A DNA stretch of 64,000 bases from Bradyrhizobium diazoefficiens. GTDB lineage: Bacteria; Pseudomonadota; Alphaproteobacteria; Rhizobiales; Xanthobacteraceae. Of this stretch, positions 23,396 to 36,453 are shown piece after piece. Position numbers and translations under genes: made by a program. The notes under the pieces were generated by a model that was not told where the DNA came from, did no database searches, and worked only from the letters and a program-made list of their open reading frames with translations. The first letter of the stretch is position 1, and every line of letters starts with the position of its first letter. The stretch lies in NCBI RefSeq assembly GCF_016616885.1, contig NZ_CP067102.1, forward strand, positions 1,888,501 through 1,952,500, read 5' to 3'.

Positions 23396-23411
23396 TGTCT
23401 CGTTCAAGACG
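23396..23411. promoter_or_regulatory. Imperfect NifA upstream activator sequence
   Basis: TGTCTCGTTCAAGACG is TGT-N10-ACG, one mismatch from the NifA site. It sits 42 bp before a perfect site and could be a second half of a tandem binding region. Confidence 0.35.
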
Positions 23412-23437
23412 TCGTTAGCGTAGTCGCGACAGCAAAC

Positions 23438-36000: not shown

Positions 36001-36453
36001 CGAGACCTGCGCGCGCATGTGCGGGCGCGGCTGCCGGACTACATGGTGCCGACGGCGGTGGTGCGGGTCGCGGCGCTGCCGTTGACGCCAAATGGCAAGC
36101 TGGACGGCAATGCGCTGCCTCCGCTTGAGGACGGGGCCGCCTCCGCCTCGGCCACGTACGCGCCGCCGCAGGGCGAGATCGAGACCGCGCTCGCGCAGAT
36201 CTGGGCCGAGCTGCTCGGCGTGGAGCGGGTCGGACGCCACGACCACTTCTTCGCGCTCGGCGGCCACTCGCTGTTGGCAGTGCAACTGTTGAGCCGGGTC
36301 GCGCGGACATTGGGGGCCGAACTGCCGCTGACGACGCTGTTTGCCAAGCCAGTGCTGGCCGAGCTCGCGCGCGAGGCTTCCATTGCTTTGCTCGAACGCG
36401 AGTTTGACCACGACGAGCTTCAGAAGCTGGTCTCTCTGGGTGCCCGGAAATGA
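24091..36453 (+). CDS. Non-ribosomal peptide synthetase, modules 1-4
   Basis: A 4120-residue NRPS. Approximate domain bounds (nt): partial C 24091-24840; A1 24885-26390; T1 26419-26640; dual C/E 26690-28080; A2 28130-29660; T2 29690-29910; C/E 29960-31350; A3 31400-32940; T3 32965-33190; C 33235-34570; A4 34620-36130; T4 36160-36380. The C/E domains carry the extra N-terminal motif HHLLAAKGD (HH[I/L]-x4-GD) plus HHLIGDH; the module-4 C domain has HHIVSDG. Pocket codes on GrsA numbering: A1 S-I-L-H-L-G-C-T (no Asp235), A2 DAFFLGIT (Ile-like), A3 DVWHVSLI (Ser), A4 DLYNNCLT (Ala-like). T domains have GGHSLLAVQ. There is no TE here, and the gene overlaps the next by ATGA. The start codon follows a GAGGTG site, with an in-frame stop about 25 bp upstream. 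Product class is certain; residue predictions are inference. Confidence 0.97.
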   Translation: MTVAHEMLAPRESFWRQRLERFKSLELPFASPSQEVSPRRQSSAWLSPDALVELLPIDRTECVLAAFLIYLARITGESELQLGWESAPNRPRAGLKAGDALVASVVPMEVSIDLAHDFAQVHRVVTAECAVLRAHDSFALDLIARCPALREIGMLRSCRPWPIGITITEISSSAAGDLASRASSDAAPCGDLLTLEICGLDGSFRWHFDTSRLASTQIERMTAHLKHLLHAVMADAGQPLGRIALLSGDERTYLLEELNRTAQPYPSNKCIHELFETEVRKAPHAVAVVDAETDLTYAELNGQANRLAHHLIGLGVKPGDRVATVLNRSIALVVAQLAILKAGAVYVPIDRGLPCERQSWMMIDCAVRLVLTATDDDAVVEAAIPVLAIEPIIAGEGRDADPGLTLTAEATAYVMYTSGSTGVPKAVAVPHRAVNRLVINNGYAEFSWSDRVAWVGNPAFSISTLEVWAPLLHGGRLIVVPYSAVLQPDILCGLVQQNSVTVLHLTAGLFNRSADHLAPVLASLRLLLVGGGAVDVAAVARVLRRCRPQRLLHCYGATETSTFATVCEITAIDETVGRLPIGRPIANTRVYLLDGGGAPVPFGATGEIHIGGAGVARGYLNRPELTAERFIASPFVEGDRLYKTGDLARYLPDGNLEFLGRNDDQVKIRGFRIEPGEIAARLAEHPLVREAVVVAQQDGRGEPRLVGYVVAAAEHGADAEQADLAATLRRHLSTRLPDYMVPTALVRLAALPLTPNGKLDRSALPAPDDEAYARASYAAPQGEIETALARIWAELLGLERVGRHDHFFALGGHSLLAVQLMARLRQLSLGVEVRTLFARPVLADLAASLGRHREVAVPANLITDQSAAITPQMLPLIALAQHEIDRIVATVPGGIGNIQDIYGLSPLQDGILFHHLLAAKGDPYLLTSQMAFADRGLLDRYLAAVQRVVDRHDILRTSFVWEGLSRPAQVVWRQAVLEVSEVALDDSGAPGPEQLKERFDPRRHRIALGRAPLLRFVMAREPGSARWLLLQLQHHLIGDHTTLEVMHAEVRAVLEGRAHELAAPQPFRDLVAQAHLGADASADEAFFRSMLAGIDAPTTPFGLSEVRGDGSAVGEARRRLPAALQAQLRSQARRLGISLASLCHLAFAQVVARSSGREQVVFGTVLFGRLHGGAGSERTLGLFINTLPLRLDLDGTAVEASVRTTHARLAELLAHEHASLALAQRCSQIAAPAPLFSSLLNYRHTTPALAAATNDALPGLEWLGGEERTNYPLTLSVEDFGDALGLTAQVAEGICADRVCGYMQQALAQLAEALERAPATPVRELDILPADERTYLLEELNRTAAPYPSDACIHQLFEQQVRKAPEAVALVCADAGLSYGELNARANRLAHHLVGLGVTPDQPVAICLERSPAMVVGLLAILKAGGAYLPLDPAYPPARLTQVLADAAPQLLLVDAAGRAALGAEALAAVTVVDLATATPAWADLPAADLDPRALGLSSRHLAYVIYTSGSTGTPKGVMVEHRSVVRLVAENDFVEISPKDVFLNASSPTFDATTFEIWGALGNGGSAVLYPERHLSTATLAQIIRDRGVTIAFMTARLFDLYVGEGRSTGRLQQLLVGGEEVSAASISVCQKRHPTLQVSNIYGPTENTTFSLCYPVPAPCDVHKRVPLGRPIRNTRIYLLDGEGAPVPFGAVGEIHIGGAGVARGYLNRPELTAERFMADPFSGVDGDRLYKTGDLARYLPDGNLEFLGRNDDQVKIRGFRIEPGEIAARLAEHPLVREAVVVAQQDGRGEPRLVGYVVAAEHAADAERADLAATLRRHLSTRLPDYMVPAALVRLAALPLTPNGKLDRNALPAPDDEAYARASYAAPQGEIETALARIWAELLGLERVGRHDHFFALGGHSLLAVQLMARLRQLSLGVEVRTLFARPVLADLAASLGRHREVAVPANLITDQSAAITPQMLPLIALAQHEIDRIVATVPGGVGNIQDIYGLSPLQDGILFHHLLAAKGDPYLLTSQMAFADRGLLDRYLAAVQRVVDRHDILRTSFVWEGLSRPAQVVWRQAVLEVSEVALDDSGAPGPEQLKERFDPRRHRIALGRAPLLRFVMAREPGSARWLLLQLQHHLIGDHTTLEVMHAEVRAVLEGRAHELAAPQPFRDLVAQAHLGADASADEAFFRSMLAGIDAPTTPFGLSEVRGDGSAVGEARRRLPAALQAQLRSQARRLGISLASLCHLAFAQVVARSSGREQVVFGTVLFGRLHGGAGSERTLGLFINTLPLRLDLDGTAVEASVRTTHARLAELLAHEHASLALAQRCSQIAAPAPLFSSLLNYRHTTPALAAATNDALPGLEWLGGEERTNYPLTLSVEDFGDALGLTAQVAEGICADRVCGYMQQALAQLAEALERAPATPVRELDILPADERTYLLEELNRTAAPYPSDACIHQLFEQQVRKAPEAVALVCADARLSYGELNAQANRLAHHLVGLGVTPDQPVAICLERSPAMVVGLLAILKAGGAYLPLDPAYPPARLTQVLADAAPQLLLVDAAGRAALGADALADLTVVDLATAAPDWAERPASDLDPRALGLSSRHLAYVIYTSGSTGTPKGAENEHRAIVNRLVWMQTAYGLAATDVVLQKTPFGFDVSAWEFFWTLLQGARLVLAPPGAHKDPAALVDLVISQRITTLHFVPSMLVSFLAAKGVEHCRSLRRLVCSGEALAAASVHQARRLLPWTGLHNLYGPTEAAIDVTAWSCPDAFDGAIVPIGRPIANTRVYLLDGGGAPVPFGATGEIHIGGAGVARGYLNRPELTAERFIASPFVDGDRLYRTGDLGRYLPDGNLEFLGRNDDQVKIRGFRIEPGEIAARLAEHPLVREAVVVAQQDGRGEPRLVGYVVAAAEHGADAEQADLAATLRRHLSTRLPDYMVPSAVVRLATLPLTPNGKLDRSALPAPDDEAYARASYAAPQGEIETALARIWAELLGLERVGRHDHFFALGGHSLLAVQLLSRVSQALGLALPLTTLFAQPVLLDLAASLVALLSGSDPHPLPAIVAVPRDAPLVLSSAQQRLWFLAQLDQSRTNYHMPLLLRLHGELDRSAWQRSLDRVLARHEGLRSIFVAPEGTPWVELVPAEAGLPLAQHDLQGRPDAAAALVELCQQEARTPFDLARGPLIRGRLIRLSDQEHVVLLTQHHIVSDGWSLGVLLRELSQLYRAFVAGDDDPLPPLAIQYPDYAAWQRQWLSGERLQSQAQYWRTTLSGAPARLALPGDRPRPAQQSFAGARVAVEIDADLTQALKRLSRRHGTTLFMTVLAAWAAVLSRLSGQDDIVIGVPSANRGRREVEELIGFFVNTLALRLDLSGRPSVAELLERTRCVALGAQEHQDLPFEQVVEIVQPPRHLDHTPLFQVMLAWQHEAVGSFELPGLRVEAAGDGGDQVKFDLELSLHEQGEVIAGTLAYATALFDPATIERQRGYLLTLLRAMAADAGQAVGRIELLSSDERAYLLEELNRTAAPYPSDACIHQLFEQQVRKAPEAVALVCADARLSYGELNVRANRLAHHLVGLGVTPDQPVAICLERSPAMVVGLLAILKAGGAYLPLDPAYPPARLTQVLADAAPQLLLVDAAGRAALGADALADLTVVDLATAAPDWAERPASDLDPRALGLSSRHLAYVIYTSGSTGTPKGVMIEHRSTVNLLHWSSGVFAASEISRTLFSTSISFDLSVYECFVPLSQGGTIYLVENALALTQTSLDVTLVNTVPSAIAALVDQKTVPVSAKVINSCGERLKAAVIEKAFERSRIEKICNLYAPSETTTYSTWICMRRGEAVIETIGRPIANTRVYLLDGEGVPVPFGAVGEIHIGGAGVARGYLNRPELTAERFIASPFVDGDRLYKTGDLARYLPDGNLEFLGRNDDQVKIRGFRIEPGEIAARLAEHPLVREAVVVAREDHRGAKHLVAYVVCAPEAGPDAQGAGALARDLRAHVRARLPDYMVPTAVVRVAALPLTPNGKLDGNALPPLEDGAASASATYAPPQGEIETALAQIWAELLGVERVGRHDHFFALGGHSLLAVQLLSRVARTLGAELPLTTLFAKPVLAELAREASIALLEREFDHDELQKLVSLGARK
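26690..28080 (+). repeat. Dual C/E domain, copy 1 of 3
   Basis: Encodes the condensation/epimerisation domain of module 2. It recurs at offsets of +3270 and +13091 bp; no difference was seen over 26910-28093 among the three copies. Confidence 0.9.
28636..29105 (+). other. A2 substrate-pocket cassette (Ile-like)
   Basis: Unique ~470-bp segment between conserved A-domain motif A3 (TSGSTGTPKG) and the GRPI...YLLDG motif. It contains FDATTFEIW, FMTARLF, LLVGGE and IYGPTENTTF, giving code DAFFLGIT, close to the known Ile code DAFFYGIT. The flanks are nearly identical to those of A3-A7. Confidence 0.7.
29960..31350 (+). repeat. Dual C/E domain, copy 2 of 3
   Basis: Module 3 copy. It differs from copy 1 by a Val for Ile in GG(I/V)GNIQDIY and is otherwise indistinguishable by eye. 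Confidence 0.9.
31911..32400 (+). repeat. Ser-specific A-pocket cassette, copy 1 of 3 (A3)
   Basis: Encodes FGFDVSAWEFF, LHFVPSMLV, RLVCSGEAL and NLYGPTEAAIDV, giving DVWHVSLI, a standard Ser code. It recurs at 38459 and 44924. Confidence 0.88.
33280..34550 (+). repeat. LCL-type condensation domain, copy 1 of 3
   Basis: C domain of module 4 (QQRLWFLAQLDQSRTNYHMP; HHIVSDGWS). Copies at +3332 and +9797 bp are essentially identical. Confidence 0.9.
35127..35570 (+). other. A4 substrate-pocket cassette (Ala-like)
   Basis: Contains ISFDLSVYECF, LVNTVPSAIA, VINSCGE and NLYAPSETTTY, giving DLYNNCLT. It is a diverged homologue of the A6 cassette (DLYNNALT). Confidence 0.65.

Follow-up and report, generated by a model that had tools for sequence, protein, structure and literature searches.

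A very probable NifA-activated sigma-54 promoter ahead of a seven-module non-ribosomal peptide synthetase operon in Bradyrhizobium diazoefficiens

What switches on the large non-ribosomal peptide synthetase (NRPS) operon in the symbiotic DNA of Bradyrhizobium diazoefficiens, and what does this operon make? The operon lies within a stretch of 64,000 nucleotides (assembly GCF_016616885.1, contig NZ_CP067102.1, positions 1,888,501-1,952,500 of a one-contig genome of 8.085 Mb), which is referred to here as the window and whose coordinates are used throughout. An initial annotation of the sequence had placed the operon under NifA/sigma-54 control and proposed a peptide made in low-oxygen nodule conditions. 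Our analysis indicates that a NifA-activated sigma-54 promoter very probably drives the NRPS operon of this strain. The joint reading of transcription by NifA and sigma-54, a heptapeptide product and its possible export by a MATE-family pump is considered likely. Bacteroid products besides fixed nitrogen are poorly known.

The promoter elements named in the initial annotation, including a one-mismatch NifA site 42 bp upstream of a perfect one, were all present as described:

23503..23518, forward strand: sigma-54 -24/-12 box TGGCATGTCGGTTGCT (TGGCATG-TCGG-TTGCT), a perfect match to TGGCAYG-N4-TTGCW
23396..23411, forward strand: NifA-type site 1 TGTCTCGTTCAAGACG, one mismatch to TGT-N10-ACA, the conserved site in an alignment of 18 relatives
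23438..23453, forward strand: NifA-type site 2 TGTCTGCACCCAGACA, perfect by motif scan, within an 18-bp palindrome and unconserved in most of the aligned relatives

The palindrome (CTGTCT-GCACCC-AGACAG, 23437-23454) encloses site 2, the centre of which is 71.5 bp upstream of the -12 C. A distance of 42.0 bp, roughly four turns of the helix, separates the centres of sites 1 and 2. Transcription is expected to start near 23530. Single elements of this kind are common, as a chance origin of the motif would have it: TGT-N10-ACA by itself occurs eight times in the window (6.3 expected) and the -24/-12 pattern with two mismatches allowed eleven times (14.1 expected). Since chance alone would give such counts, they were discarded as evidence. 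The perfect box, on the other hand, is expected only 0.05 times per 64 kb, and none of 60 simulated windows contained a box preceded at 40-150 bp by a NifA site, making coincidence an extremely improbable explanation. Across the genome the perfect box occurs 15 times, against once for a reversed control pattern. A perfect TGT-N10-ACA lies no more than 170 bp upstream at six of these 15 boxes: those of nifD, nifB and nifH (named by reading the starts of the encoded proteins, without a family search), of two other genes and of the NRPS operon.

Downstream of the box, the operon consists of the following:

23580..24107, forward strand: leader open reading frame (ORF; MKLARLIK...) with start box TTCAGATGAAACTTGC, identified as an ORF and by alignment, overlapping the start of NRPS1 in another frame
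23811..24080, forward strand: C-terminal formyltransferase remnant (residues ~242-334; tblastn, 40% identity), its catalytic N-terminal domain gone
24091..36453, forward strand: NRPS1, 4120 aa, a half-condensation-adenylation-thiolation (half-C-A-T) module followed by three C-A-T modules (domain search)
36450..47078, forward strand: NRPS2, 3542 aa, three C-A-T modules and a C-terminal thioesterase (domain search)

The ATG of NRPS1 is 572 bases downstream of the -24/-12 box, after the leader ORF. The extent first given to the operon, 23396..36453, covers NRPS1 and falls short of its end at 47078. A sigma-70 promoter closer to 24091 had been put forward as a counter-test; simple scans of 23250-24200 identified neither a sigma-70-like nor a terminator-like site.

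When 265 genomes of the genus were searched with window positions 23281-24400, 85 gave matches, some in the NRPS part only. Of 20 fetched regions, 18 provided promoter copies that could be aligned; these were selected for a match extending across the promoter, and some of them do not adjoin an NRPS. Conservation in the 18 copies is 99% at the nine scored positions of the box and 98% at the ten of site 1, versus 78% for the 219 other positions of the block; such a concentration on motif bases also speaks against chance. At site 2, agreement with the window at the six key bases is 37%. The weight originally placed on the perfect site therefore needs revision: the site exists, but the conserved NifA site is the one-mismatch site at 23396 and not that at 23438. 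A perfect NifA site is present in 15 of the 18 copies and a TGGC-type box in 17, the copies lacking the perfect site being L066, L067 and L068, of which L068 has TGGTATGTCGATTGCT; L050 carries TGTCTGCATCCAGACA at site 2. The start box of the leader ORF is 94% conserved.

The conserved block might be a reiterated NifA cassette that mainly drives the leader ORF, with the NRPS genes transcribed from elsewhere or hardly at all. In keeping with this, the block stands without a nearby NRPS in several genomes and as a tandem pair in one (L064). However, the leader ORF of the window overlaps NRPS1 with no terminator- or promoter-like site between them, and in L068 and L084 the start of the leader is the start of a formyltransferase-NRPS protein; the cassette explanation is thus considered unlikely.

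The block (window 23389-23673) is reiterated in Bradyrhizobium, where it precedes a short coiled-coil-like ORF in several genomes (L053, L056, L063, L064, L065 and L067). The two tandem copies of L064, near 6994 and 8087, share 69% identity. In L063 and L067 a 438-codon frame lies behind the block, polygalacturonase-type by its look, without a family search. A 248-aa ORF starting MLINQGELANLTDKFQ is located ~1.75 kb downstream of the L050 block, which has no NRPS; it presumably resembles YqcI/YcgG proteins, a likeness given without a family search.

The NRPS itself belongs to a family that is largely rhizobial. A named genome collection was searched with the first 470 residues, as short patterns, and the best 80 of 115 stretches gave 72 loci. 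Fifty-six of these (L076-L131) are from Bradyrhizobium, Mesorhizobium, Rhizobium, Ensifer/Sinorhizobium and Paraburkholderia, and the remaining 16, more distant, are from Pseudomonas (14), Serratia (one) and a cyanobacterium (one). Regions up to 6 kb upstream were scanned for 54 of the 56, L123 and L130 having too little upstream DNA. A box with at most one mismatch was found in sense orientation at 42 of the 54 loci and antisense at ten (2.5 expected from shuffles). When a perfect NifA site 40-150 bp upstream of the box was included, the numbers were 25 sense (22 Bradyrhizobium, two Mesorhizobium, one Sinorhizobium) against one antisense (0.1 expected), and with two mismatches allowed in the box they were 32 against one (0.3 expected). 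Members of one group do not count as independent loci, and the sets of fetched regions overlap in part. A perfect box with a NifA site also stands ahead of the VOC gene of Paraburkholderia sabiae, a locus outside the 54. No box in either direction was seen at the 16 outgroup loci, some of which have short upstream DNA. The promoter sequences differ among loci, with at least five distinguished by reading of the scan, so that the property is more than a single inherited stretch.

Two further candidate elements were observed in these scans. A conserved antisense box, TGGCACGGCCCTTGCT, lies ~600-700 bases upstream of the sense box in L081, L084, L087, L090, L100, L111 and L117 and accounts for seven of the antisense hits; a divergent sigma-54 gene is suggested by its position upstream of formyltransferase-NRPS operons. 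Six loci from Mesorhizobium, Rhizobium and, in one case, Bradyrhizobium (L080, L094, L095, L097, L098 and L107) have a further candidate promoter ~1.3 kb upstream of the NRPS match, near the formyltransferase start. It reads TGGCACG(A/G)T(A/G)C(A/G)TGCG and is preceded at 60-61 bp by a NifA-type site.

In the relatives, the DNA from promoter to NRPS holds varied combinations of genes: for a formyltransferase, in fused or in separate form, for an ectoine synthase resembling EctC, or for a VOC protein together with an aminotransferase dependent on pyridoxal phosphate (PLP). The nearest solved relative of the VOC protein is 4-hydroxyphenylpyruvate dioxygenase. All 17 readable first-module codes of the 20 EctC loci (L094, L097 and L128 being unreadable) are DVQFYAQVI, and loci with a VOC or a long aminotransferase match carry [DS]ILHLGCTF (five) or DAWQFG[VL]ID (two). 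The link is not exclusive, as seven formyltransferase loci without EctC carry close variants of the EctC code; L123 and L130 have the EctC code and lack the upstream DNA for judging, and the misaligned code rows of L096 and L116 were left unused. This distribution suggests that the accessory gene goes with the first-module code, and that EctC and the VOC-aminotransferase pair make the starter residue, as interchangeable starter units. With the code SILHLGCTF and no EctC match in the window, the operon described here is of another sub-type than EctC/DVQFYAQVI.

For one member of this family, blr2108, regulation has been described. Genome G027 is taken as that of the species carrying blr2106-blr2108; in it, an NRPS gene of 3310 codons comes after ectC. 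The promoter of this locus reads CGGCATGAGATTTGCT and has TGTTAGATTGGCTACA at a distance of 86 bp on its upstream side, and similar CGGCATGA... boxes precede nine other EctC-type loci. According to PMC6515984 (Table 2), the blr2108 protein of B. diazoefficiens shows a log2 value of 6.5 in microoxic versus oxic cells, and its transcript, marked as a NifA and RpoN target, is 39-fold up in soybean bacteroids. In nifA-mutant soybean nodules, blr2108 is lowered by a log2 of -4.6 (~24-fold) and blr2106 (ectC) by -6.5, no nifH-mutant value being printed (PMC4926349, Table 3). The finding of a blr2108-like promoter together with this published NifA dependence provides the promoter scan with an experimental check. 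A sigma-54 activator other than NifA could in principle use the box, which is common to all sigma-54 promoters, and most of the 15 genomic boxes lack a perfect NifA site. This is very unlikely given that TGT-N10-AC(A/G) is conserved in the 18 relatives and given the nifA-mutant data of PMC4926349 for a family member. The regulation initially proposed is strongly supported by the conservation of the motif bases, by the like promoters before many related NRPS operons and by the blr2108 data.

The blr2108-like locus and the window share the NRPS family (the G027 N-terminal domain is 55-57% identical to that of the window), a sigma-54 box with a NifA site and a location in a symbiotic region. The former, however, has three modules, an EctC gene, another promoter sequence and another first-module code, whereas the window encodes seven modules and no EctC, and its NRPS genes are accompanied by a leader ORF that includes a formyltransferase remnant and by a MATE gene in divergent orientation. 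NifA regulation of such an operon has a precedent in blr2108; new here are the wide occurrence of the arrangement, the fact that within the genus it is confined to strongly nodA-positive genomes, the starter swaps and the stripped seven-module variant. No paper on the NRPS family or its product was found in the open-licence literature.

Several observations weigh against NifA-driven peptide synthesis in the window strain. Twelve of the 54 scanned loci lack a one-mismatch box, including all three Rhizobium loci, the single Paraburkholderia atlantica locus of the set and that of the Oc8 relative, and 29 lack the full pair of box and perfect site. The block also precedes unrelated genes in other genomes, and the published expression concerns blr2108 rather than the window strain. 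Moreover, the blr2108 transcript is listed as unchanged in free-living microoxia in PMC6515984, although the protein is strongly up; the signal may therefore comprise more than low oxygen. Finally, starter genes have been lost from the window copy: the catalytic half of the formyltransferase, the VOC gene and the aminotransferase gene.

This last point raises the possibility that the promoter works while the cluster is in early decay, being expressed and making nothing. Such decay competes with the predicted product only and is compatible with NifA control; its likelihood overlaps with that of the joint reading because a promoter can still work in a decaying cluster. It is a serious possibility, although not the one preferred. 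An intact formyltransferase in the window was ruled out, the remnant covering residues ~242-334 only, while the Formyl_trans_N domain is at residues 84-189 of an intact relative. VOC and aminotransferase genes are not in the window, and elsewhere in the genome only distant matches occur (best 32% identity for VOC and 26-31% for the aminotransferase). In addition, the NRPS genes of the two nearest relatives (Oc8 and G260) are truncated: their matches do not extend past module 1, stopping near residue 883, and the first stops fall at codons 146 and 890. Set against decay are the two open NRPS frames of the window, with seven modules in total, and a ratio of non-synonymous to synonymous substitution rates (dN/dS) of 0.31 for NRPS module 1 relative to G260. 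Furthermore, EctC-type loci, including the blr2108-like one, also lack a formyltransferase, yet the blr2108 protein is made, as reported in PMC6515984. Oc8 and G260 also lack the segment matching 21616-24064 (MATE gene, promoter and formyltransferase remnant). Loss of the promoter and of the NRPS coincide in both and may reflect one shared event; this joint loss was counted in favour of the promoter serving the NRPS operon.

If the assembly line is functional, its product can be outlined from the encoded domains. The first condensation domain of NRPS1 is read as a half domain in the absence of HHxxxDG. We take ILFHHLLAAKGD, present in the condensation domains that follow modules 1, 2 and 5, to mark dual condensation/epimerisation domains, and D-residues are predicted at positions 1, 2 and 5 for this reason. 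The nine-letter adenylation codes are SILHLGCTF (module 1), DAFFLGITF (module 2), DVWHVSLID (modules 3, 5 and 7), DLYNNCLTY (module 4) and DLYNNALTY (module 6). Without a predictor run, we assume from likeness that module 2 resembles codes for Ile, modules 3, 5 and 7 those for Ser and modules 4 and 6 those for Ala. A candidate exporter is encoded on the other side of the promoter:

21736..23271, reverse strand: MATE-family efflux transporter, divergent from the NRPS promoter (PF01554; TIGR00797, 213 bits against a cut-off of 147)

In the proposed mechanism, the low oxygen of the nodule would let NifA act, and NifA with sigma-54 would transcribe the leader ORF, NRPS1 and NRPS2 from ~23530, together with nitrogenase. 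The assembly line would then form a seven-residue peptide with D-residues at positions 1, 2 and 5, presumably unformylated because the starter cassette is stripped in the window, and the thioesterase would release it. The divergent MATE pump may perhaps export this peptide. A small peptide is thus probably made inside nodules. The initial annotation had favoured a bacteroid metabolite over a free-living siderophore or antibiotic: this is half supported, as the timing follows from the promoter, while the product might equally be a metallophore or antimicrobial made in nodules. Among 30 non-NRPS ORFs scanned, a subset of those in the window, none gave a Pfam match for an ornithine monooxygenase or TonB-receptor, genes that some metallophore types do not need.

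MATE genes are also divergent from the block in three genomes without a nearby NRPS (L063, 7038-8048; L064, 5548-6725; L065, 5824-6880), and in L093 one is found upstream of a formyltransferase-NRPS (1176-2594).

The distribution of the family bears on its role. Its N-terminal NRPS domain was identified in 62 of the 265 genomes of the genus, all 62 being among the 139 with a strong nodA match and none among the 126 others (Fisher p 9e-22). Weak NodA matches (E 1e-6 or worse) are present in 24 of these 126. If every nodA match at E 0.001 is accepted (163 genomes), the figures are 62 of 163 versus 0 of 102. The sequence of P. sabiae, a betarhizobium, clusters with seven Bradyrhizobium sequences (100/99 support), and over 171 bp its promoter shares 76% identity with the B. 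algeriense promoter; the NRPS operon therefore appears to move with its promoter, between alpha- and betarhizobia. An assembly line switched on with nitrogenase, found within the genus only in strong-nodA genomes and apparently transferred between alpha- and betaproteobacteria would point to a metabolite selected inside nodules. We tentatively propose, as a possibility somewhat short of even, a horizontally moved, NifA-timed NRPS family across both groups of rhizobia, making nodule peptides with interchangeable starters. In some of these, a dedicated first module would receive an ectoine-like cyclic compound made by an EctC homologue; in others, the starter would be a different non-standard amino acid from a VOC-aminotransferase pair, and N-formylation would be frequent. 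If true, this would constitute a general, unrecognised class of bacteroid metabolites.

Genome G162 has five matches to the N-terminal domain of the family, one of them within an 11,196-aa open frame, which suggests that duplication and changes in the number of modules diversify the family.

The operons most like that of the window are those of B. algeriense, B. hipponense, Bradyrhizobium sp. CSA207 and P. sabiae, arranged as promoter-VOC-(aminotransferase)-formyltransferase-NRPS. They share its type of promoter block and a related first-module code ([DS]ILHLGCTF), but all four keep the VOC and formyltransferase genes, and most the aminotransferase gene, which the window has lost. The best solved relative of the module-2 adenylation domain is LgrA, the linear gramicidin synthase (PDB 6mfy and others). 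LgrA starts with a formyltransferase domain, whereas the window retains only a remnant of one and its module 1 has a half-condensation domain. The rhizopine (mos) genes of Sinorhizobium meliloti, controlled by NifA, provide a specialised bacteroid metabolite from a nif-type promoter; unlike the predicted peptide, rhizopines are inositol derivatives and not NRPS-made. Reiterated nifH promoters, in which a NifA promoter and leader are copied before several genes, occur in Rhizobium trifolii and S. meliloti. Those copies are of the nifH promoter, whereas the block of the window is a separate Bradyrhizobium cassette.

The wider setting also agrees with the initial annotation, which had noted nifA and a sigma-54 fixA promoter in the window:

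59019..60872, forward strand: nifA (TIGR01817, 763 bits against a cut-off of 529; PF00158, GAF and HTH_8)
61004..61019, forward strand: one-mismatch -24/-12 box upstream of a fixA-type gene (motif scan)
21329..21595, forward strand: 3' remnant of gene Y (M6-peptidase-like; 405 aa in the nearest relatives), 74% identical to residues 318-405

The ORF at 60919-61899 matches PF01012 and is an electron-transfer-flavoprotein beta (fixA-type) gene. As nodA is located ~18 kb past the window end, nifA lies inside the window and the genome has one rpoN match, the window is regarded as symbiotic DNA. The gene Y remnant scores 79 bits with the M6-domain model, under its cut-off of 110.8. At 2092-6414, genes for a nitroreductase, a cytidine diphosphate (CDP)-alcohol phosphatidyltransferase, a PLP-enzyme and a thiamine pyrophosphate (TPP)-enzyme follow one another, and at a guess these might form a small phosphonate- or lipid-type pathway.

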